Assembly: GCF_032062135.1 (NCBI RefSeq)
Contig: NC_092859.1
Span: 25,765,602 to 25,829,601, forward strand
Reading direction: 5' to 3'
Source of the DNA: Pyxicephalus adspersus
Lineage: Eukaryota; Chordata; Amphibia; Anura; Pyxicephalidae
DNA length: 64,000 nucleotides
In this document: positions 28,558 through 64,000 of the stretch, one piece after another
Layout of the letters: every line of letters starts with the position of its first letter
Position numbering within the stretch: position 1 is the stretch's first letter
Position numbers and translations under genes: made by a program
The notes under the pieces: generated by a model
What the model was told of the DNA's origin: nothing
Database searches by the model: none
What the model saw: only the letters and a program-made list of their open reading frames with translations

Positions 28558-31500
28558 AAATGAAGTGTGGTGTTCAACCAACAAAGATGATGGCTAGAGA
28601 CTTTTTACAAGCAAACTCTCGTATCATTGGGGGCGAGGATGCTGAGGAAGGCGGGCAGCCTTGGACGGTATGTTGGATGATAGAAGCATGGGTGCTCTAC
28701 AGTGAAGGTGGCACAAGTCATTGAAAAAGAGCAATTCCAAGTAACGTGTGTAATTACTGAAATGGAAATTGTACCTAGGATTTGTTACTAGCCAGTAACC
28801 CAACCAACTCGTTTTTTTATTTTTCCCACTTTACTGAGCTCCAGACAACCTGCTAAAATCAGTATAACTTCAAAGAAGTGTTTTCTGCTTTACTTGCCAA
28901 AGAATTTTCATTTCTGTCCAGCCAGTTCTTTGGTCCAGGCATTTTTGCCACACCATAAAGCCAAACCCTAGACCTATCTACAGATTATAGCCAATACAGA
29001 GAAGAAATAAAGGTTGCTCTAAGATTCCTATTGCTCGAGATAATTGTTTGTAAGTGTATTAGGTAAATCTAGCATTTATTAAGCTAGCCTCCCTTTTCTA
29101 ATGGTGAGGATGCAGCAGTCTACCCACCAGCATATTTATGAGGTAATTGATTGTATGTTTATAGTCAACTAATCTTAGGACTAGATTGGGTACTATAGTG
29201 GAATNNNNNNNNNNNNNNNNNNNNNNNNNNNNNNNNNNNNNNNNNNNNNNNNNNNNNNNNNNNNNNNNNNNNNNNNNNNNNNNNNNNNNNNNNNNNNNNN
29301 NNNNNNNNNNNNNNNNNNNNNNNNNNNNNNNNNNNNNNNNNNNNNNNNNNNNNNNNNNNNNNNNNNNNNNNNNNNNNNNNNNNNNNNNNNNNNNNNNNNN
29401 NNNNNNNNNNNNNNNNNNNNNNNNNNNNNNNNNNNNNNNNNNNNNNNNNNNNNNNNNNNNNNNNNNNNNNNNNNNNNNNNNNNNNNNNNNNNNNNNNNNN
29501 NNNNNNNNNNNNNNNNNNNNNNNNNNNNNNNNNNNNNNNNNNNNNNNNNNNNNNNNNNNNNNNNNNNNNNNNNNNNNNNNNNNNNNNNNNNNNNNNNNNN
29601 NNNNNNNNNNNNNNNNNNNNNNNNNNNNNNNNNNNNNNNNNNNNNNNNNNNNNNNNNNNNNNNNNNNNNNNNNNNNNNNNNNNNNNNNNNNNNNNNNNNN
29701 NNNNNNNNNNNGTGGATTTATATATTGTAGCATCACAACCTAGCACAAACCAGAGCTTTCAGTTGATTGGTATATAGTAGAGATTTATCAATGTCTCTTG
29801 ACCATCTGCAGGTCTGCCTAAGCTGTTACAAGGCAATGCCATTCTATGTGTGAATATTTTTTATTTTTATTTTAATATCATGCATGGCAGAAATTAGAAT
29901 ATTCAGGTAGCAAAGATTTAGAATAGCAAGTTCTCAAAACTGGAGTTCATTTTGAATATGAGAAGCCAGCAGGACCCTCTTGAGACCTTCACCAACTGAT
30001 ATAAACAAGTCAATGGGTTAAGGGTCAACTCCTCTTATCTCTGGCCTACAGGATTTGGTATTCAAAAACACTTTATAGGGATAAGGTCTGGGAATTTTGG
30101 GACAGCCAGGCAGATGGCTTGTTAGGCTGCACAAGCAAAATGACTTGTTGGGGTGCATTCTAACCTGTGGGTTGTATGTTGACCAACCTAGTTTTTGAAA
30201 AATGCGAGCTATTCTGGAGTTACTACTTCCCCTTTGATTTCTTTATTTTGTCAGTGAGCTTAGTCACTTGCAAGTCATTGCTGGAGAATACAATCGGACT
30301 GCCATAGATGCTGAACAGCAAAATATCTCCGTCTCCGGAGTGAAGATCCACCCAAAGTACCGTCCTGATGGAAGTATGACCTACGACATTGCATTACTTT
30401 ACCTCGCTCAATCAATCACCCTGGGTGAGTCAATTGGCATTACCAATTTTAATTAAGACAATTGAGGTTCAAAGGAAAACTTGGTAATATTCACTATATC
30501 TACAGTTAATGGAACATTAATGTTATCAGTAAATTAGGAAGTAGAAACAGATTTTACCAAAACTAATAATAATAATAACATCATGAAATAAAATGAATAG
30601 TAAAGAAAAATGGTAAACCTAAGGACAAAATACTTAAAATATGCAAAATTTTAACATTGATTTAGTTTAACCTGAAGGGGATGATTTTTCTCTGCATAAT
30701 GTTAACTCCCCTTTTCTCTTCTTTACAGGTTCAGAGGTGCAGCTGATCTGTCTACCACAAGTGGGGGAAGAAGCTGAAATTGGGACATTGTGTGTATCTA
30801 GTGGATGGGGAAGAGTTGGGGAAAGTAAGTTTTACATGCATTTTAATTAGGCTACTCTTATGGCTCATTGATTTTTTTATTTGAGTTGTGCAGAACCATA
30901 TGGTCACAGTGTTGGTGATTTGGGTGTTGTAAAATGTGTCTGGTTGATTCCTGATTGTCCGATTTGATTGGTTGATGAGGAATAGCCTCTATGATTAACA
31001 TTAGGGGGAACAGGGTGGGCTAAATCCTTGCAAGAAAAATCAAATTTTGCATAGAATTACCAAAGATTATAATTGCAATCATAAACTGATTTTTATGAGT
31101 GATGACTTCCCTTGTTTTCTGTTTGCAGATGCAGAATTTTCAAATGTCCTGCAGGTAGTGACGCTTCCCATTCTAGATTCCACTATGTGTGGTTCAGTCC
31201 TAAACTCTATGGGACTGCCAGCTTTGCACAGCTCCATGCTATGTGCAGGCTTTCCAGGTGGGGGTAAAGATGCTTGCCAGGTAGGTGCAAAAAAAAAAAA
31301 TTGTGTGTGCATGTTGTAAGTAATCATTAGTGTATCCAAATTTTTGTTACCAGTTCTGGATTGCTTTCTGTGTCCTGTGGGAAATTTACCCTTTCTATTT
31401 GTCCTTGAGGCCATCCAAAATTGTTGTTGGATTAAGAAGTTAAACAAAATATTCTAGTGTAGACACCTGTTTAGATGACAACTGTCTAAGATGATTTACC

Positions 31501-51459: not shown

Positions 51460-51865
51460 ATACTTCCTCAGGGCATCTTTCTCATAGCTCTGTCCAGTGA
51501 AGGCTAATGCAAAATGGGAGAGGATTGCGGCTTCAGCACCATGGACAGCAAGATAAGATGGACTTTCCATTATTTCTATTAGTCAGGAACCTCACATACA
51601 TATCCTACCAGTGCTGTGAAGGTCAGGATTAGGCAAAGAGGATGATGTTTACATTTGGTTAATACAAGACATCTTCACTTTTATCATCCCAGTTACAAAG
51701 GGAAATGTTCCACTTCCTTTCACCCTGGAGGATGCTTACCCTTTCCTCTGTTTCAGCATCTGCAAAATAGATTCAGGCATGGAGGAGTATGTGATCCCCT
51801 TTGGCTTGGAATAATTGTTGTAACTCTACTGCCTGTGTTTTGGTTCAACAGCCTTTGTGAGTCTT

Positions 51866-52114
51866 GCCACTGACACTGGAGGGTTTTTTTCTGCCCACTG
51901 ACACTGGAGGGTTTTTTTCTGCCCACTGACACTGGAGGGTTTTTTTCTGCCCACTGACACTGGAGTATTCTTCTGCCCAATGACTCCAGGGCATTCTTTT
52001 GCCCATTGACACTGGAGCGTTCTACTGCCCACTGACTCTGAGGCATTGTTCTGCCCACTGACTCTGGAGCATTCTTCTGCCCATTGACACTGGAGCATTC
52101 TTCTGCCCACTGAC
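51866..52114. repeat. Minisatellite, nine 26-28 bp units
   Basis: The unit is ccactgacactggag followed by a T-rich spacer and ctgc. Units 1-3 are identical 28-mers with a seven-T spacer; units 4-9 are 26-mers with att(c)ttctgc spacers and point differences; a partial tenth unit ends at 52114. The antisense frames rich in Ser, Gln, Trp and Lys are a by-product of the repeat. Confidence 0.92.
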
Positions 52115-52494
52115 CGCTCACCTTAACATGTAGTCCAATATTTGAGTATGTTATGATTACTGTGGATTTAGTGCAGGATACACCGTGAATACATTCAGAG
52201 TTTATTTAATCAAGGCCCCTAAGCCATGTGCAATATTTAGTTCTATGCAGTCATGCCCACTGTTCTCTGTAGTGCACCACCTTCAGATGCCTTGCCAGTG
52301 TGTCCTTCCTTCTCATATTCTCAATGAGTGATGACGTTTGAAATATGGCACCTGATTATTATTTTATAGCCAGCCTACCAACATTACTAAGCTGACGAGT
52401 ATAAAGTTCACCAACTATCTTTCCTTGTTTCTGCAAAAACAAACACAATAAAAATGCAGTAGGGAAGTTAAACTTCATTGCATTCTTCTCAGCT

Positions 52495-53270
52495 ATGGCA
52501 TCTGCTGCTCTGAAGAATGCTGCAATGTTCTATCTGTTTGTACCTATTTAAGGATCCTGTAATGCTGAAATGTGGACACAGCTTCTGCCAGGATTGTATC
52601 ACTCATGAGTCTAAAGCAAATGTGTTGTATGAAGGTTATACATGCAGGTATGCAGTCTATTCCTGTCCTGTGTGCAAAGAAAGGTTTCACAGTTTAGATG
52701 ATTTCATACCGAATATAAACCTGGGTAATATGGTGGAAGGTTTATGACTGCTTCTGGAAATATTTATTGTAATGACTTTTCTATACCTTCTGTTCAATTC
52801 TGCATGCATTGTGAAACTTCTATGTGTGATAAACACCTGAAAGCCCACAGCAAGTCAGTAAAACACATCTCCACTGATCCCATTGGTCAACTGGAGTTCA
52901 AAAAATGTTCTGACCATAACAAGGCTCTGAAGTATTACTGTACTATGGATTCTAAATTAATCTGTCTATATTGCTATTTGATTGGGGGTCATAAAAGACA
53001 TGAGACAATTGGGTGAAGACCTCTGGAAACAACCAGAAGACACAGACATAACCAGGACTGTGATCTCTAGGCATGAAGTATGTCATTCCCACCAAGCCAA
53101 TAATCTAATTCAGGAGCAGAAAATAAAGACGGCTGATCCCTCTGTTGAGATTCAGCATATTAAAGGGGAGTCTTGCAGGACTGGTCAAATGTCTGACCTG
53201 CAGGGTTCAGGTAAATTCAGTAGAACGATAGTGATGAACATTACAAACAGCTCCATAATAAAGTAAGTCT
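52495..53270 (+). pseudogene. Broken TRIM-family copy (RING plus two B-boxes)
   Basis: The ATG at 52495 opens MASAALKN, then a frame change leads into [20 protein letters not shown] and FCQDCI, the first half of a C3HC4 RING, with SCPVCKERF closing it. A TGA at 52745-52747 ends that frame. The next frame carries a B-box-like stretch (CMHCETSMCDKHLKAHSKS) and a B-box 2 (CSDHNKALKYYCTMDSKLIC, then GGHKRHE). After 53016 the frame is lost again and no coiled coil or SPRY domain follows. TRIM proteins are RING ubiquitin ligases, expanded in fish and amphibians. At least two frame breaks argue for a pseudogene, possibly processed. Confidence 0.82.
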
Positions 53271-54463: not shown

Positions 54464-54589
54464 AAGAATTATTTGTAATATAGGAGTGGGCACACATGCC
54501 CATTCCCGGAAAAAGTGAGGGCACAGTGTTAATGTTCACCAGTTATTGTTTAGATCTACTACTATATATATTTTATGTCAATAATAATA

Positions 54590-54955
54590 TCTCCAGATCT
54601 GAGAAAGGACCTTGAATGTTCCATCTGTTTGAACATTTTTAGGGATCCTGTGATGCTGAAGTGTGGGCACAGCTTTTGCCATGACTGTATCAATTGGAAC
54701 CTGGAAACACACAAGGTATTGGAAGGTGTTTTCTTTATGATGGAACTGCACTGTGAGGCTTCCATGTGTGATAAACACCTAAATGTCTACAACAAGTCAA
54801 TAAAACACATCTTCCCTGGAGATGAAAAAATGTTCTGATCCTAAATAAGTCCTGAAGTATTACTGTACTGAGGACTCTGCTCGGATCTGTATTTACTGCT
54901 GTCTGATTGGGGAGCACAAAGGACATAAAATAGTCATCAGAGGAGGCTATGAAGA
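54590..54955 (+). pseudogene. Second TRIM-family copy with internal deletion
   Basis: [20 protein letters not shown] and [12 protein letters not shown] open a RING like the copy at 52495. After [10 protein letters not shown] the frame jumps directly to [19 protein letters not shown], so the second half of the RING is deleted. The first frame stops at 54836. The B-box 2 remnant (YYCTEDSARICIYCCLIGEH) continues in another frame up to about 54930. It lies 2 kb from the first copy in the same orientation; the two are clearly related and neither could make a whole TRIM. Confidence 0.82.
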
Positions 54956-54992
54956 ATGATGCAGTAAAGGCTTCTTCTAAATTTTACATTCA

Positions 54993-55520
54993 ATGCAAAA
55001 AATTAATTCAACAACCAATGATCCCATTACACATACACCAACTCCACTCTTAGGCGTTTTATCTGTGCTTAAAAGAAACAACAATGGAGGGAAAAGTTTA
55101 GAACAAAATGTGACCGGTATGGTCATCCATTGCTTTGCCTCAAAAGTCATTCCTGAGGTTGGTCTCCCCTTGGATGTCCAGGTTATTGAGGATCCCTCTT
55201 ACTATGTCAATATCCGGTCACCCCCACTGCTCATAGTAACATCACCTGTACCATCCACAATGTGGGCATCTCTGCTTTCCATGGCCGCAGGTAGTGCCCA
55301 CGTCATCCACAACACAGACAACTGGAACGCTCTGTTTATGGAGCGTTTGAGGCCACATTACCATTTCCAAGTACAAGCAGAATGTAATTTCTACCATTCA
55401 TCACCTCTGCGTTGCCCAGGTCACCCAGGCGTTGTCTCATCAATACCCGCAGAACATCTGAAACATCTCTGCAGACATCACTTGAGACTTCATAGTGTAT
55501 TTATAAAGCAGAGAATATGA
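54993..55520 (+). CDS. Unrecognised 175-codon open frame
   Basis: Opens MQKINSTTNDPITHTPTPLL and ends HSVFIKQRI with TGA. I do not recognise the product and see no signal peptide, transmembrane segment or motif. It starts just after the second TRIM remnant and might be part of the same transcript's downstream region or repeat-derived DNA. His- and Pro-rich with scattered Cys. It is longer than most chance frames here but nothing else supports coding. Treat as hypothetical. Confidence 0.2.
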   Translation: MQKINSTTNDPITHTPTPLLGVLSVLKRNNNGGKSLEQNVTGMVIHCFASKVIPEVGLPLDVQVIEDPSYYVNIRSPPLLIVTSPVPSTMWASLLSMAAGSAHVIHNTDNWNALFMERLRPHYHFQVQAECNFYHSSPLRCPGHPGVVSSIPAEHLKHLCRHHLRLHSVFIKQRI

Positions 55521-56629
55521 CTTTCACTGAAACATCCCCTGGTAGAAAATTTTTCAGGTCCATGCGATTCTAAATCAGGTGTCTATTCTCCACAATTCAA
55601 TGAATTCACTGCTTTATAAATAGACCCCTTAGAATGTAATATTTCCATATTCTGTATATAATCAGTGTACCTATGTTATAAAATGTATCAACACCTAATA
55701 ATCATTTATTCATGTTCTGTGTTTATGTAACATTTCTGGGTATTTTTTTTATAACCACTTACTACCACTTATCTACCACAGTATTCCCCCTGACAATGCC
55801 CTCATCTGCTTTTCTCTCCACGTAGACAAAACCATCTTTTTTGGGCAACATACAGAATATTCTGGACTGAGATGATGGATAAGTGATGGCACATTATATT
55901 AGTCCCTGTGCTAGATCCATCATTGGCACAGATCACACAATTATAAAAGGTGGAACTTTATTGAAAAGACCATTGGTATGACAATTACAAGGAACATTTT
56001 CATTTACCATCCATAACATACTTGTTAAAAAATAAATGGAAATCATAAAACAGTCAAAAAATAAATACATAAACATATTGTAATAAATGTAATTTTTTAG
56101 TTAAAATAAAATAGTTCATATCTAGTAGTAGTAGTAGTTCACAACTCTTAAGGCTGGTGATATAGTGTGCTGGGTAACTTTAAATTAAGGTCCTCTCCTG
56201 CTGGGGACAATGATCCCTGCATTGATGATTGTAAATGAAAAGCACCAGGGGGACACTCCTCAGGGGTGGTCCCATGACACCCTGCATTTACTGTATGTCT
56301 GTTTAATTGAATGAATATGACCATCATTCAACTCAAAAGACTGAGGACATCTTGTGGTGAAAATTTAGTGCTGCAGGAGGTGCTGCAACTGGTCTTAACA
56401 ACCAGTTTAACATGTGATTTTTAAAAATATGCCTGTCTCATCTCTTCAGAAACAAAAAAAAAATTACAGAAGATTTGGTGATTTTGAATATTTCTGAAAA
56501 TTTTAATATATACATATATATAATATCTCCAAAAACAATTACATATTTGCCTTCGTACCCCTATATAAATGTAACAGTCAATTCATTGGTGGGGGACCTC
56601 ATCATTCTATTTCTGCCGCATTGAAGACT
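55521..56629. other. Non-coding flank; probable 3'UTR of the minus-strand depolymerase gene
   Basis: No gene seen. Minus-strand AATAAA (plus-strand tttatt at 55957-55962) lies about 670 bases after the depolymerase stop, so 55940-56629 may be its 3'UTR. Confidence 0.4.
55957..55962 (-). terminator. Candidate poly(A) signal for the depolymerase-like gene
   Basis: TTTATT on the plus strand, AATAAA on the minus strand, about 670 bases past the stop at 56630. Other AT-rich matches are possible. Confidence 0.35.
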
Positions 56630-57054
56630 TTAATATTGTCCCAAAGTCCTCAGCATCATCCTTTCAACTCCGGTCATCTGGTATCCATTCTTGTTAGCTG
56701 AAAAAAACGACAGCAGGGTAAATGTCACTGAAAAATACAATTTCTTGTTCTAGGAGCAAATGTAGACACATAGGAGTTATTAGAAGGATTTATTTATAGA
56801 TAATTGTACTAACAGGAAGAAGGGGCAAATGGGCTTTATTTGTCCCAGAGAACAGTTTATCTGATACCCACCCCCCCCCCAAAAAAAACAAAAAAAAATG
56901 TTTCTTACCATAATATATACTGCTGAATCCCCACCTGTTGGAGAAAGGAAAACATTTTCATTAAACCTTCTGTAGCTGGATAAGATTTTTGTCATTATTT
57001 CATAATAAAATATTTTTTTTTACTTAGAATATGACACTTGTATCTATGACATTT

Positions 57055-57102
<48 letters not shown>

Positions 57103-58606
57103 TATATATATATTATTATTATTATATATATTATATATATTACAAGTATATATTATTATATATACTTGTTATAAAGCAACTTTTCTCAATCTTTTTTAAC
57201 ATGGGAAACCCTTGAAATAACTTCCAGGTCTTCAGAGAACGCCTACTATATTTACAGATCATAGTACCGTGTTTCCCCGAAAATAAGACAGTGTCTTATA
57301 TTTATTTTACCTCTGAAAATCTCATTAGGGCTTATTTTCAGGGGATGTCTTATTTTTCTCACAAAAAATCTATATTTATTCATGTACAAAAATCTGTATT
57401 TACCAAAACCTGTAACCAATATTACTATAGAACGATACCTCTGTGTTACCTGTGACCTGTCAAAATCACAGATTTCTTCTGTTATATACAAGAAGTCATG
57501 AATAAGAATTGACATAAATGAGTAATGAAAAAAAACACAGAGTTACATGTTAAATCTGAGTAAAAGCAAAAAAAAAAAATCAATTAATAAATATACATTG
57601 CTGCTAATGAATAAAATACCAGCAAGGACCTTTTGAAAAGAGAATCCACCAACCTCTTAGTGCTAGTGTCACACCAGAGTACTGTAGGTTAATTAACCCT
57701 GCGATTTCTTCATCCCTTTCTCCAGTGCTTTTGAAATCTCCTGCTCTCTCTCTCTGCTCCCTCCTTCCTCTTGGTATCCCTCCGTGTACCACGTGACCAC
57801 ACCCTCCGAAGAAGCCAATAGGGCTTACTTTCAGGGGAGGGCTTATATTTCACCCTTGCATGATTAGCATGCTAGGGCTTACTTTCGGGGTAGGTCTTAT
57901 TTTCGGGGAAACATGTTACATTAATAGGAGGTCAGTAGGATGAATGCCTTTTACATTAATGGTTGGTGGGAAAAATGTCGCCCTTACAAAAAGCCAAAAA
58001 TGTAATTGGTGTCACCTTAACTGACCTGAGAGGCACAAATTGCTCATGGGTCTGGAGGAACCCTAGTTATGAAAAACTGATATATAAGTCTGATTTAATA
58101 AAGTTCTCTATGTCAGGAGAAGATACACTTTTTACAGTGAAACTGGATGATCCAGCAAACCTGGAATGGAATTCTTAAAAGTAATTTGCTATTTGTTAGC
58201 AAATGTTTTCAATCTTGGACCAGACCCATACTGGGTTTGCTGGATCACTCAACTTCACTGATAAAAGTGTAACCTAAAAGCTTTAATAAATGTATTATAT
58301 ATATTAATATAATGTATCAGTAACATTACCAGTCCCAGCATCCATTGGGGTTGGACAGGTTGGATTTGGCTTGAGGGTAGAGGATAATGAAATTGTTCAG
58401 ATCAGCGACTTGGTTGTATCCGGTGTTTCTGGCGTATTTATCACCGAGCTTCTCTCTGGAAACAAAAAACGCAACTTGATAAAAAAAATCATTCAGTGGG
58501 CACACAGATATACATTGTCTGCAACACTCTGCACTGCCCATGCACCACAGGCCGTGTACTACTACAATACTAATAGGGGGAGGCAATATGCGGTGTCTCT
58601 TCTCAA

Positions 58607-58650
<44 letters not shown>

Positions 58651-61600
58651 TGTATTTTTCTTCCAGGATTAGGATTTATGTATTTACCACTGACTCCCAT
58701 CCTTTTCACCACGGAAATTTGTAACATGCAGCATGGTATATGAATGATTGCAGATCATATGGTAGGAGCACAGAATTCACCTTCACACAGCTCACAGATT
58801 TCACAGATGTATTTGAGTCTGAATGTAACCAAGACTTTGTTTTTCTTATAAATTAGAGTCAGGTTTTCTCGGTCCCTTTTTTCTGGTAAAACCAATAAAC
58901 ACAGGAGAATGCTGTACTTTGCATAGCTCACATGGTTTGAATTAGCCCTCCCATTGTGCACCTCATTCAGGGGTTTACAATGTTTTTCTTTTTTTTTTTA
59001 AGAATTGCACATAAAAAAGTAAAGAATAGAAAGTTCAAGAAGAAAACAAAACTTGTTTGAAGTGCCTCCTAAAAAATCAGCTCTCATTCCTTTCTTTTAG
59101 GATTAGTATTGAAGCTTCCTTACATTTCACTTTTTGCTTTATCTCCAGGACAGGATGTGGAAGGAAATTCCTTGTGAAAATTACTTTTACTATGCAGAGC
59201 CATAAACAGTTTTCATAAAGCTGCTTTACTACTATGCTGTAAATAGACCTAACAGAGCTGAGATCAGACTGGAGCTTAAATTACACGCATAGCTGAATGA
59301 GCCCAAAGAGAGACACCCTCCTCAATCTCATAGCAGGAATGTATCCCTGGGGATTTTCACCTTGTATAAGCTGTGAACAAGTGCCAAGGGAATTGCTGGG
59401 ATTTCTCAACTTTTTGAATGTACAAAATTGTACAAAAAATGAAACAAAGATATAAATCATCTCTCTATAAACCTGTAAAGACATAACCTAGTGTGAATTC
59501 CTATATACAATATCTTACCTGGCCTGGAGACAGCCGTGGAATACAATGTGCAGTCTGCATCCTAAAAAAAAATCATAAGGGATTTACAAATCATAAAGAT
59601 TAATCGTAGAGCTTTAAGGGAAAGGGGACTATATGGCATTTCATAAGAAGCTTGCACTCCTTTTACTAATTTATTGCCCTCCCAAATCTGTAACTAGTTC
59701 CCAACTAGGTGCCCTTTTATTCCAAAAAATAATTTTTGGCCTGAGATACTGGAAGAGGTTATTGTTATAACTGACTAATAATAATACATTTTTGTGCTCT
59801 ATCATGTTATATGAACAGTTTTATGATATTTATCACTAGTAGTGTTGAATATCTCACTACTCGATCCTTTGGCTATTCAAGCAAACAGAACAATTTTGTT
59901 TGGACAATCGAACATCGAATTTGAACACAAGTCAATGGGGGGAAAATTCGGGTTATTTTTCGGGACTGTGTAGAGCTGACCCCTGCCAGCCAGGATTAGA
60001 CTGAATCGACCAGGGGGACATTAGGCCAGAATGGACTACTGGCTAGGCAGTAACTGGCCTAAAGGCCGGAGTTTGCCTACCCCTGGTATAGAGCTTCTAC
60101 AGCCTCCAAATACATTTAAAAAGACATGTCAAGATTCCCTCAGCTCTGCACAACACTGTACAAGGCAAGACAAAAATGAGGAAGGCGTACTTAACTTATA
60201 TGACCTCTCAATGAAGAGGTTCAGTACTCTTGCGGTCACAGCTGATTGGAGGCACGTGCTGTGCACCCACGTGCTTCCAATGAGCTGTGACCGCAGGTTC
60301 CCTTGGTCCAGGTTCCCACAGTCCCTGGGCTGTATTTATGATAAGTACAGCCCAGGGACTGTGGGAACCTCATTTTAGGTGAGTTAGTTTGAAAATAGGA
60401 AAGTAATAAGTAAGTACACACAAATCACTAACATTTATTAAAGAATAAATTTCATTAAAGTCTGGATTATTTGCACTTATATTTTAAGCTTTCAGGGAAC
60501 CAGTAAGGGGTAATATGTACCCCTGTACTTATTCCCCATGGTTGGACATTTGAGAGTCGTCTTTTTAAAGGGAACTTCTGGATTCTGGAATTCAGAGCGC
60601 CAAATTTGCGGCGTCGAATCCTGTGTTTTTCGGGTCGGATCTATATGAATTTGAACCATATTCAGGTCAAATATAAGGACAACCCGAATTCAAACACCAA
60701 CACTAATCACTAGTCAAGAAAATAGACAAACTTCTGGTCTGACGGGGAGAGAATACATCACAATAAATAATCACACACAAGTACTTTCGAACACAGTGAT
60801 TATTCAGATTTTTACAGACAACAATATTTATGTTAGCCTGCTGAGTGAATAAACTGATTCACTTACTTGCTCCACTCTGGCAGGAAGCGGGAACATAAAT
60901 GTATCCAGCAGTGTCCATTCCATAAGTGGAAGCGGCGGCCAGTTTAAAATATTCTGACTGGTCAAACAGGATCAGCTAAAAGAGAGAGAGATGAGCATAT
61001 TCCATGGTGAGAACAGTAAGATGGCTACTTATGCCCTGATATTAAAGGTTAAATTGTTTATTTTTAAATGGGGTGTTAGAATCTCTGCTCAGATTCTGTT
61101 GCTTTCTACTAGACAGTAAAAAAGGATCAACAGCACACTGATCAGCACACCTCTCTGACACGCTACCTCAACTCCTATTGGGTGCATTGCACACCCCTGA
61201 CTGGCTCCTTTTGCTGCTTCTCCCTCTTCTTCTAAGCTTTGCTGTAGGAGTTGCAAGAAGCTAAAACCAAGTCGAACTTGGATACTTGCACTAATTGTTT
61301 CAAAAATACATTTATTGAAGGAAAAAAATTAAAGTACTAAATTAGGTTGTGTCTTTTATATCAGATTTCAAAACTCTAGCCGTAAACATTTTCCTTTTGT
61401 TTTGAGTAGAGTACTTTGATTGCTGTCTGTAGAGATTTTCCCACACTTCCTGTTCTGATGGTCAGATATTTATTGGGGAAACACAGAGGTAAAATACCTT
61501 AGTGTGCAGTGTAAATTATATTCACACAACTTTCATCCACTATTCATATAATTACAGTTGGGTGTACTGCCACTAGATGGCGTCATGAACCCATAGATTG

Positions 61601-62921
61601 TAATTGTAGTTCCCTGAATGTACTGCCAATAGAAGGGAGCCAAAAAGATTATTAGAGACCTGCACAAAATATTTACTCCATCTGTATATGGGATACAATC
61701 TAACTGAGGGTATAAAAATGCTGTGAACATATAAAACTTTAGATACTGGAAAAATGATATATATAGAAAAGGAATATTTTTAATTTACTTACCTGTCCAG
61801 TTAGAGCTGCTCCGGGTGTTGGTTTCTATAAAACAAAGAGTTGTGTAAATCATTTATATTTTTATAAACCCTAACAATGGACATCGCTAATTCATTACTT
61901 ATTGGTCTGGTAATAATACCATTTAGAATGTTTTGTTATATCTAAATGTGCGAAGTCTTTTTACCATTTACTACAACCCTTCTGCAATGCAAAAGTCCCC
62001 ATTTGCCCAATAATATTATCAGGTTATAATATTTCCTTTACCAGGCCCTGCCTATGCTGACCCCTGAAAGCCTCATTCCATACAAAGGACATTTAAGTTT
62101 TGCATGGTCAGAGCAAATTCCTGAATGATTGATGTTAGAAAACAGATTACAACATAAGCCACACATTGACTGAATGTGAATTATGACGCTGTGCAATATA
62201 TTTCGTCAATTAGTTAAAGTTATTGACCAATAATTGATGGATATTGGCAGATTGTGAAATGAAACAATTTCATTAAACCATAGTAATAGAAATCAATGAT
62301 CAAACAAGTGGATGGAGCATTGTGGGCATCATAAAAGATCAATTTGTGGTGCTGATCATAATATCAATAAAACATAAAATTAGGATGAAATCACATAACA
62401 TAACCCTGGTGTACAGATCCATTGAATGCAGGAGAATGGCAGCTTTAAGATGCAGCACGGGATGGCAGCAGTGATTTGATTGAAATAAAGGCAGATGCTT
62501 ATAACATAGAGTTTTATCAAAGTGGAGTTTTCTTCCACTATAAGAGATCAGAAAACTGATCAATGGAATCCGATCACGTTTCCATGTGCAGATGATGATC
62601 AATTCCTTATAGCACTGGAGTCTCATCTCACCTGGAGTCCCCCATAGATGTGGTTCAAAGCCTCGTAGGCACCATTGTAATTGCAGTTGTTGATGTATTC
62701 CAGGTTGGTGGTCCCGCAGGCCCCTCCGTAAAAGTCAGTAGGCTGTAAATAGAAGAATTGTTATTTCACCGTACGGTAATCAATAGATAACTATCAGATG
62801 TCATTGGTAAATATTAGAGGCCTGCTCACCATGCCGTGCTCTGCTGGTACATCATAGACGGTCTTAATGTTTGCGGGATTTGTGTATTTTAGGTAATATT
62901 CCTCCTGTTTCTTCACCACTC
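56630..62921 (-). CDS. Poly(3-hydroxybutyrate) depolymerase-like esterase, last eight exons
   Basis: Exons in transcript order: 62830-62921, 62632-62742, 61793-61825, 60867-60975, 59519-59561, 58330-58455, 56909-56934, 56630-56697. All introns are GT-AG, phases fit, and the joined frame gives about 200 residues ending LRTLGQY and TAA. It matches the secreted fungal-type PHB depolymerase (circularly permuted alpha/beta hydrolase) as I know it: EHGMPTDF (catalytic His before PTDF), YGGACGTTNLEYINNCNYNG, GMDTAGYIYVPASC, CRLHIVFHGCLQ, NTGYNQVADLNNFIILYPQA, NPNGCWDWWGF and NGYQM. Paired cysteines of the family are present. The nucleophile Ser (GLSxGG) and the Asp are upstream in that family, so their exons and the signal peptide should lie beyond 64000. 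The family hydrolyses short-chain polyhydroxyalkanoates outside the cell; the substrate in a frog is unknown. Neighbours give no functional hint. Confidence 0.88.
57059..57170. repeat. (TA)n and related AT microsatellite
   Basis: A pure TA run at 57059-57097, then TATTAT-type AT sequence to about 57170, in the depolymerase intron 56935-58329. Confidence 0.9.
57177..58079. mobile_element. hAT-like element, copy 7, split by another transposon
   Basis: The left part (57177-57269: ttttctcaatctttttta, then cttccaggtcttcagagaac) and right part (57914-58079: aaatgtcgcccttacaaaaa, acctgagaggcacaaattgc, then ctggaggaaccctag) are one family member, interrupted by the insertion at 57270-57913. Confidence 0.75.
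57270..57913. mobile_element. DNA transposon derivative with tgtttccccgaaaataagac ends
   Basis: Terminal inverted repeats tgtttccccgaaaataagac at 57270 and its inverse ending 57913. Inside each end is a second related copy of the word (agggcttattttcagggga on the left; gcttactttcaggggagggc on the right). No transposase. I recall the same termini in reptile genomes but cannot name the family. It is younger than the hAT-like element it interrupts. Confidence 0.8.
58086..58291. mobile_element. Fold-back element, copy 5
   Basis: gatgatccagcaaacctgga on the left, ctgggtttgctggatcactc on the right, and taatttgctatttgttagc in the middle. It lies 39 bases downstream (gene sense) of the donor of exon 58330-58455. 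Confidence 0.8.
58611..58641. repeat. (TA)n microsatellite
   Basis: Alternating TA run of about 30 bases, 155 bases upstream (gene sense) of the depolymerase exon 58330-58455. Confidence 0.9.
59838..60709. mobile_element. Probable composite inverted-repeat element
   Basis: Left end tagtagtgttgaatatctc and right end caacactaatcacta are roughly inverse. The interior holds a strong hairpin (tcacagctgattggaggcac against tgcttccaatgagctgtgac, and cccagggactgtgggaacct against its inverse). The tcacagctgattggaggcac word is shared with 34797-35699. It lies in the depolymerase intron 59562-60866. Confidence 0.55.
62632..62921 (-). other. Depolymerase exons with catalytic His and cysteine loop
   Basis: Exon 62830-62921 (VVKKQEEYYLKYTNPANIKT, then VYDVPAEHGM) and exon 62632-62742 (PTDFYGGACGTTNLEYINNC, then NYNGAYEALNHIYGGLQ). 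The intron falls between EHGM and PTDF, right behind the presumed catalytic His. In the fungal enzyme the equivalent segment is H-x-x-PTDF followed by a Cys-bridged loop and an NCNYDGA-like motif. The conservation here is the strongest single argument for the family call. Confidence 0.85.
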
Positions 62922-62964
62922 CTGCAACGCACAGAATAATACATAGAGATGTGTGAATGAAGAA

Positions 62965-63459
62965 CAGGGGTGTCAAACTCAAATACACAGAGGGCCAAAA
63001 TTAAAAACTTAGACAAAGTCACGAGCCAAACTTGAAATTTATTAAAAAAATCTAGGAAGTTTTTCCTTCTCATTAGATATAAAACCTTTTCATATGGAAA
63101 CAAAGAGGTTTTTCTTAACATTCAATCTGGAACAAGCTTCAAATAGATGAATAGCACCGCTACTAGAATTCGAAAACAGTCCAATGCGGGGCTTAATGTT
63201 ATGAGTGGCTGGAACTTCCTTTTCACTGAAATAGCACCACTACTACAATCCCTGCATCTATAAAACATAAAAATCTAATGCGGGGCCATGCATAGGCAGA
63301 GAGGCCGCTGGTCTATAGACGCGAGTGATGCCGGGAATGGTAGTAGCATTTCAATGCAGCGGCGGGCCAGCTGCAATTCATATTTAGAACTCCTTTGTGG
63401 GTCAAAAAAAGGATGTACTGGGCCAGATTTGTCCCGCGGGCCAAAGATTAACACCCCTG
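62965..63459. mobile_element. hAT-like element with caggggtgtcaaactc ends
   Basis: Begins caggggtgtcaaactc and ends gattaacacccctg. Flanking octamers atgaagaa (62957-62964) and atgtagag (63460-63467) match at 6 of 8 positions, as expected for an 8 bp hAT target duplication. Interior words gagggccaaaattaaaaac and ggccagatttgtcccgcggg are near-inverse. It lies immediately upstream (gene sense) of the depolymerase exon at 62830-62921. Confidence 0.8.
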
Positions 63460-63571
63460 ATGTAGAGTCATAATTCCACCTATCTAGGGTGCAGCAACAA
63501 TGTAGTCAAAAATTATTAATTTACTAAAAACAAGTAATTTCCAGATTTTCCAAAGAATAGAATATTCTAAC

Positions 63572-63960
63572 AGGCAGCACAGTGGCAAGGGTCCTGGGTT
63601 ATAATCTTGGAGAATGTGTTATCTACATAAAGTTTGCATGTTCTCCCAATGGGCCTGATTTATTAAAGCTCTTCAGCAAACCTAGAATAGATTTCTTCAA
63701 AGTAATTTGCTATTTGCTGATTGTATGCCGTGAAATCAAGAAATCCTGGACCACATACATGTCAGGTTTTCTGGATCACCCAGCGTCACTGATAAAAGTA
63801 TATTCTTTCTAGTCTTGGAGAGCTTTATTTAATCCAGGCCCTATGTTTGAGTGCGATTCCTTGGATATCCTAAAAGTATACAGATAGGCTGATTGTTCTA
63901 GGACAATGTTAAGGACGGTTACAGACATGTTACCAACTATGGGCCCTTCACAGAACTGTG
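63572..63960 (+). mobile_element. SINE head interrupted by the fold-back element
   Basis: The left part (63572-63650) reads ggcagcacagtggcaagggt and aagtttgcatgttctccc, the head of the tRNA-derived SINE. The right part (about 63842-63900: gtttgagtgcgattccttg, cagataggctgattg) resembles its continuation. The fold-back element 63651-63841 sits between them. Confidence 0.6.
63651..63841. mobile_element. Fold-back element, copy 6 (nested in a SINE)
   Basis: Clean ends gggcctgatttattaaagct and gagctttatttaatccaggccc-type inverse. Central words taatttgctatttgctga and tctggatcacccagcgtcac. Its insertion inside the SINE makes it younger than that SINE copy. Confidence 0.8.
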
Positions 63961-64000
63961 TATGTGTTGGTTCTGTATAAAGGTATGACTGACAAAAGAG

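Follow-up and report, generated by a model that had tools for sequence, protein, structure and literature searches.

A poly(3-hydroxybutyrate) depolymerase-like gene of probable animal descent in the frog Pyxicephalus adspersus

What is the nature of a poly(3-hydroxybutyrate) (PHB) depolymerase type gene in a frog genome, and where did it come from? This question is raised by a 64,000-nucleotide stretch of the Pyxicephalus adspersus genome (contig NC_092859.1, positions 25,765,602 to 25,829,601; the whole stretch is termed the window), which carries eight exons of such a gene. A sequence-only reading described the locus as a "fungal/bacterial-type" PHB depolymerase gene, and left its origin between an old horizontal transfer and an ancient animal gene that most vertebrates would have lost. 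The frog gene is an uncharacterised new member of a known enzyme family, and it is already named "poly(3-hydroxybutyrate) depolymerase-like" in NCBI records. The joint claim of type 2 family membership, a predicted action on PHB and animal descent is held here with moderate confidence.

A protein search with the translated window piece found the public model P0009, annotated as poly(3-hydroxybutyrate) depolymerase-like [Pyxicephalus adspersus], with 100% identity over 85% of the piece. P0009 provides the 5′ part of the protein that lies off the window, i.e. a hydrophobic N-terminus, a GLSSG box and an Asp residue. The nearest solved structures are 2D80 and 2D81, the PHB depolymerase of Penicillium funiculosum (phmmer search of the PDB, E-value = 5.4e-38 to 2D80). 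The NCBIfam model NF050059 (type 2 extracellular short-chain-length polyhydroxyalkanoate (PHA) depolymerase) has a curated cut-off of 280 bits, and this is exceeded by P0009 (338.3), by its Mantella ortholog P0001 (367.2) and by a second P. adspersus copy, P0024 (360.6). The 201-residue window piece alone scores 232.4, over 61% of length. One lamprey, one hemichordate and one choanoflagellate protein also pass the cut-off. Scores for the type 1 PHA depolymerase model NF050058 stay below its cut-off of 150 (P0009, 89.1; P0001, 87.4). With Pfam PF10503 (Esterase_PHB, gathering score 23), the window piece scores 24, P0009 20.2, P0001 19.0 and P0024 22.3, with only partial alignments to the model. 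The family named by the sequence-only reading is thus correct by the phmmer search, the NF050059 profile and the structural alignment.

The active site was compared with 2D80, whose chain-to-entry numbering was taken as plus 20, consistent with the entry residue range 21–337. Asp121 and Trp307 of 2D80 were added by us as presumed further active-site positions. The nucleophile of 2D80 is Ser39, and the ligand contacts described for 2D81 are at positions 250, 251, 39, 40, 43, 123, 124 and 155 (PMC7034887); the ligand, according to the PDB title, is an R3HB ((R)-3-hydroxybutyrate) trimer. The Ser, Asp and His of P0009 align to positions 39, 121 and 155 of 2D80. Over the ten positions compared, P0009 deviates at 123 alone, with Val for Thr. 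GLSSG fits the lipase box GxSxG with a hydrophobic first x. In P0009 the HGC motif is at residues 250–252, after Ser35, Asp121 and His155; the His and Cys are within window exons, and the window itself carries the equivalents of His155, Cys250, Leu251 and Trp307. The predicted model closely matches the fold of the Penicillium enzyme. The frog protein very probably has a depolymerase fold with an intact triad. Secretion is predicted from the hydrophobic N-terminus of P0009 (best 10-residue mean hydropathy, 3.16).

Conservation was followed across 36 models from amphibians and lamprey, with isoforms counted. All but one keep the Asp, and all but one the His; 33 have the oxyanion Cys, 32 the Trp and 26 the Ser. 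Eight models lack the stretch that holds the Ser, and two Anomaloglossus isoforms with a different N-terminus have another residue in its place. The salamander model P0032 displays Cys in place of the Trp, at a garbled end. Farther afield, a protein of the amoeba Pelomyxa schiedti (P0108) has Ala and Asp where the two Ser align and retains the Asp, His and Cys; on its sequence, it may be inactive or work differently.

The eight exons are at the place given by the sequence-only reading, in frame and with standard splice sites, on the minus strand, which that reading did not give (Table 1). AG is present at 8/8 acceptors and GT at 7/7 donors. The exon phases fit to give a single 201-residue frame that has no internal stop or frameshift and ends in TAA. 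All seven quoted family signatures are found in the joined protein, and the description of it as the C-terminal two thirds is about right (201/328 residues, judged by full-length orthologs). Exon 1 opens inside a split codon; thus at least one further exon must lie upstream. The exons further 5′, which encode the catalytic Ser and Asp, fall outside the window, and a tblastn search using proteins of frogs, salamanders, lamprey and molluscs found no separate match at positions 62962–64000. A chance open frame is ruled out by the exon structure, by the phmmer match to 2D80 and by the match to the best frog ortholog in the protein search (E-value = 5.4e-126). This is almost certainly a real gene.

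P0009 ends in CWDW, at the exon 6 donor, as if TGG-TAA had been read through there (the genomic sequence is GACTGGTAATG). This truncation, together with the 5′ exons not being shown by the window, might suggest a decaying or inactive gene copy. However, it is accounted for by two overlooked AG/GT exons, 7 and 8. Joined, they encode WGFSSIYYANKNGYQMTGVERMMLRTLGQY, which matches the final 30 residues of Mantella P0001 exactly and has one difference from Rana P0002; the WGFSSIYY of exon 7 is identical in both. The eight exons read through without a premature stop or a frameshift, and the catalytic positions are retained, so that a decaying copy is the least probable of the explanations considered. 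At the 3′ end, the exon model of the sequence-only reading is more complete than the public P0009. The models P0022, P0029 and P0032 likewise err at the CWDW site. Six frog models (P0008, P0015, P0017, P0022, P0025 and P0029) start at MANQFH, right after the catalytic Ser, and have probably missed the first exon. Frog models of the PHB depolymerase-like family should be scrutinised at both ends. A full-length copy is present in Xenopus laevis.

Two protein searches, which require shared exact words, show how the family is spread (first search, 153 matches with 120 listed; second, 936 matches with 120 listed). Named among the matches listed are at least 21 amphibian species, lamprey, amphioxus, hemichordates, starfish, molluscs, an annelid, a rotifer, an amphipod, a springtail, a millipede, an ostracod, a choanoflagellate (two proteins), an amoeba and bacteria. 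The matches listed name no jawed fish, reptile, bird, mammal or caecilian, which is not proof of loss, and many of the matches come from metagenome contigs. Judged by this absence, the gene has probably been lost in most other vertebrates.

The second copy in P. adspersus, P0024, is 71% identical and is on a 160.9 Mb contig, as is P0009. The presence of the gene on this contig and on large contigs in many amphibians, with at least 21 amphibian species among the matches listed, makes contamination very unlikely, as the sequence-only reading had argued on other grounds. There are two early frog branches in the first tree described below (97/89 and a weaker 92/34), and Bombina and Rhinophrynus have one copy in each. 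Nine frog species have at least two proteins each on same-sized contigs, and the copies in Rana and Bombina bear consecutive locus numbers; these shared sizes and numbers make a tandem cluster likely in frogs. Within the window there is no second copy (tblastn, seven queries, nothing below E 0.5 outside the gene).

Two trees bear on the origin of the gene. Tree 1 was built from 75 out of 206 collected proteins: 60 rows have a named organism or a sponge-type gene name, 7 are other eukprot-type rows and 8 are unnamed. Certain isoforms, partial models and species that bear names are not in it. The eukprot row P0147, with an Ephydatia-style gene name, is taken to be a sponge. Tree 2, of 77 rows, is tree 1 minus the 8 unnamed rows and 6 frog rows, plus 11 fungi and 5 bacteria from 120 listed matches. 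Lamprey, salamanders and frogs form a single clade in both trees (branch values 100/93 and 99/99), nested within a bilaterian clade (97/89 and 96/85). A sponge-type row is just outside this clade, and the choanoflagellate rows fall outside the animal clade. In tree 2 the fungal rows adjoin Burkholderiaceae and Myxococcales rows. The protein search and tree proposed as a check by the sequence-only reading place the sampled vertebrate copies as one clade inside the animals.

If an ancestor of the amphibians, or an early vertebrate, had acquired the gene by horizontal transfer from bacteria or fungi, this would agree with the patchy spread, as the vertebrates named among the matches listed are only frogs, salamanders and lamprey, and the family is common in bacteria and fungi. 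The nesting of the vertebrate copies in the animal clade, with sponge-type and choanoflagellate rows outside it, does not agree with such a transfer. The approximately unbiased (AU) test rejects a grouping of vertebrates with fungi (p = 2.4e-58), and this rules out a fungal origin. Because the bacterial rows are not one clade, two narrower tests were used for amphibians with bacteria; a grouping with the Roseobacter and Photobacterium rows (p = 0.003) and one with Pseudoduganella (p = 7e-5) are both rejected, ruling out an origin from either group. A wider test of amphibians with bacteria also rejects strongly, but it is weak evidence for the same reason and was given no weight. The frog copies do not branch with the fungi or with either of these two bacterial groups as donor, in trees or AU tests, and a transfer into vertebrates is very improbable. 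As to the two origins left side by side by the sequence-only reading, there is better support for an ancient animal gene with loss in most vertebrates, and transfer into frogs from fungi or the two bacterial groups is rejected. The term "fungal/bacterial-type" fits the family as a whole, but within it the frog gene lies in an animal branch.

Some results do not sit well with plain descent. Tree 2 joins the vertebrates to protostomes (98/93), apart from amphioxus, hemichordates and starfish. The groups used in the AU tests, except the fungal one, which came from the sequence-only reading, were chosen after the tree had been seen, which is a weaker ground. There are long branches in the trees, e.g. 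Pelomyxa, Photobacterium, Capitella and Cyprideis. Old or multiple transfers among early eukaryotes or animals, i.e. exchange or hidden paralogy instead of plain descent, would account for the protostome grouping and also for the pairing of vertebrates with a long-branched annelid row in tree 1 (90/80), for one hemichordate copy paired with a millipede (100/84, tree 2), and for the patchy eukaryote spread, in which amoeba and other eukaryote rows are near the choanoflagellates. However, the AU test rejects neither the vertebrates held with deuterostomes, which is the species-tree grouping (p = 0.232), nor all animals as one clade (p = 0.273). In tree 2 the mollusc rows group together, as do those of starfish and those of amphioxus, and two copies in several species suggest old paralogs. 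Early exchange thus appears improbable, although less so than a transfer into vertebrates. An old duplication with uneven loss would explain the vertebrate-protostome grouping, as would exchange; the former is favoured. Descent of the frog gene from an early animal gene is considered quite probable.

On shared intron positions, odd isoforms alone give an indication, and it is no more than suggestive. In lamprey, the sequence of isoform P0065 picks up again at EKLGD and carries an insert behind CWDW, two points that coincide with exon borders of the frog gene, although its gap starts inside frog exon 4; a Xenopus model (P0030) displays extra sequence near the exon 3/4 border. Intron positions may be shared with the frog gene.

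From the family, the active site and the modelled fold, it is likely that the frog enzyme cuts PHB or its oligomers. The Ser would attack an ester bond of a PHB chain lying on the surface around the conserved Trp, the His and Asp would pass the proton on, and the backbone at the Ser40 and Cys250 equivalents would steady the intermediate. (R)-3-hydroxybutyrate or short oligomers would be released, which a vertebrate could use as a ketone body.

Several observations weaken a PHB assignment. The Ser and Asp are known from the public record P0009 and not from the window. Position 40 directly follows the Ser, and two of the 18 frog rows (P0005 and P0007) have Ala there; at position 43, 2D80 and most frogs have Tyr, and salamanders and lamprey have Ala or Cys. 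The named animal proteins do not have the extra carbohydrate-binding or fibronectin-type domain of many fungal and bacterial members. A linker and separate substrate-binding domain, which are usual in type 2 enzymes and not defining, were not found: the frog protein has 328 residues, the profile match covers residues 27–321 of P0001, and P0009, P0001 and P0024 show no further Pfam domain. The solved Penicillium chain is also single-domain (2D80, 318 residues). The fold and triad are common to other esterases, so that they do not fix the substrate. The frog protein could then be a secreted carboxylesterase that has kept the depolymerase fold and acts on another ester (plant, algal or cuticular, or small lipids) in gut or skin; this is unlikely, but it is the most probable of the alternatives to a PHB depolymerase of animal descent.

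For the site of action, the gut has about an even chance, by analogy with a like-named sea cucumber gene. In the sea cucumber intestine at day 14 of regeneration, a "polyhydroxybutyrate depolymerase-like" gene is fifth among the reduced genes listed (log2 −7.35), and it adjoins alpha-amylase and lipases in that list; on the other side, day 14 is the only time point whose top-ten list includes it, and the lists for days 3, 7 and 21 do not (PMC3735544). A gut role, which the sequence-only reading had labelled speculation, thus gains indirect support.

The animals that bear the gene are mostly eaters of detritus, films or bacteria, and their diet fits digestion of PHB in the gut. Eleutherodactylus coqui is not known to have a feeding tadpole. 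Its copy (P0029) passes NF050059 (299.6 vs 280), which counts against a role in tadpoles only; thus adults probably use the enzyme too. A related arrangement may be seen in P0174, from a metagenome contig, in which a relative of the catalytic domain precedes a Peritrophin-A domain (PF01607, 33.5 bits), a chitin-binding type present in gut linings. P0174 is possibly animal and perhaps a gut enzyme anchored to the peritrophic matrix.

The fullest account is offered tentatively, as somewhat short of an even chance: amphibians and lampreys would keep a working digestive PHB depolymerase from the first animals, which would turn the PHB of swallowed bacteria into (R)-3-hydroxybutyrate ketone fuel, and which would have been lost in jawed fishes and amniotes. 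Should the predicted activity hold, some vertebrates would be able to digest a polymer that has been regarded as the preserve of microbes, bacterial carbon stores would be tied to ketone metabolism, and there would be a bearing on bioplastic breakdown in animals. What stands out is that a vertebrate carries a bioplastic depolymerase which appears intact and is likely of animal descent, and that only lamprey and amphibians are found among the vertebrates listed. An old animal enzyme retained in these two groups and apparently missing elsewhere among vertebrates would be a clear case of its kind.

The features of the window are collected in Table 1. TRIM-like exons adjoin the gene and resemble a TRIM family that has been duplicated or is broken in part, and the 179-codon open stretch is possibly a decayed coding piece. 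An Rfam scan of the window gave no match.

Table 1. Coordinates of the gene exons and of other features in the window
Feature	Positions	Strand	Length	Product or content	Borders and phase	Remarks
Exon 1	62830..62921	−	92 nt	VVKKQEEYYLKYTNPANIKTVYDVPAEHGM	AG acceptor, GTGAGC donor; starts mid-Gly codon	Catalytic His (= 2D80 His155); identical to P0009
Exon 2	62632..62742	−	111 nt	PTDFYGGACGTTNLEYINNCNYNGAYEALNHIYGGLQ	AG/GT; phase 0 at both ends	
Exon 3	61793..61825	−	33 nt	KPTPGAALTGQ	AG/GT; phase 0	
Exon 4	60867..60975	−	109 nt	LILFDQSEYFKLAAASTYGMDTAGYIYVPASCQSGA	AG/GT; ends in phase 1	
Exon 5	59519..59561	−	43 nt	RCRLHIVFHGCLQA	AG/GT; phases 1 to 2	Oxyanion-hole Cys (= 2D80 Cys250) within HGC
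Exon 6	58330..58455	−	126 nt	REKLGDKYARNTGYNQVADLNNFIILYPQAKSNLSNPNGCWD	AG/GT; phase 2 at both ends	NCBI model P0009 stops here
Exon 7	56909..56934	−	26 nt	End of Trp codon, then WGFSSIYY	AG/GT; phases 2 to 1	Trp = 2D80 Trp307; not in P0009
Exon 8	56630..56697	−	68 nt incl. TAA stop	ANKNGYQMTGVERMMLRTLGQY	AG acceptor	Not in P0009
Possible poly(A) signals 3′ of stop	56302..56507	−		ATTAAA at 56507 and 56307		Motif scan only; more lie farther on
179-codon open stretch	54981–55520	+	179 codons			Sub-threshold Pfam PCO_ADO (14.7 bits vs 27)
Second TRIM-like RING copy	54554–54838	+				PF13445 (45 bits); ~2 kb on from first
TRIM-like exons	52514–53016	+		RING finger, then B-box		PF13445 (51 bits), PF00643 (39.2 bits)
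Apparent short tandem array	~51750–52200			Open frames give repeats such as SVSGQKK, QWAEKNPP		
Run of N (assembly gap)	~29195–29715		~0.5 kb			Far from the depolymerase gene

As far as the literature searched could show, the statement of the sequence-only reading that no vertebrate enzyme of this kind has been characterised stands. A recent preprint is said to deal with PHA depolymerases in marine invertebrates; preprints were outside the literature searched, and novelty of the animal family is therefore not claimed. For an animal or amphibian PHB depolymerase enzyme, the literature searched gave one lead only, the sea cucumber paper (PMC3735544); the main text of PMC13342648 has no mention of depolymerase or frog. 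The sea cucumber sequence, isotig27384, is of the same family by name and falls with digestive enzymes in the regenerating gut, a kinship known from the authors' BlastX label alone and not from sequence (PMC3735544).

The amphibian "poly(3-hydroxybutyrate) depolymerase-like" records, such as Rana temporaria LOC120932811–LOC120932813, are orthologs and paralogs with up to 93% identity to the window piece among the matches listed. They are named by the database only, and functional work on them was not found in the literature searched. NF050059 serves prokaryote annotation, and many of the bacterial and fungal members listed bear FN3 or CBM1 domains, which the frog protein does not have. Among the closest known systems is also the Penicillium funiculosum PHB depolymerase (2D80, 2D81), which is 40% identical to the frog protein in the structural alignment; however, the fungal rows are far from the animal branch, and the coding sequence in the frog is spread over nine exons or more.

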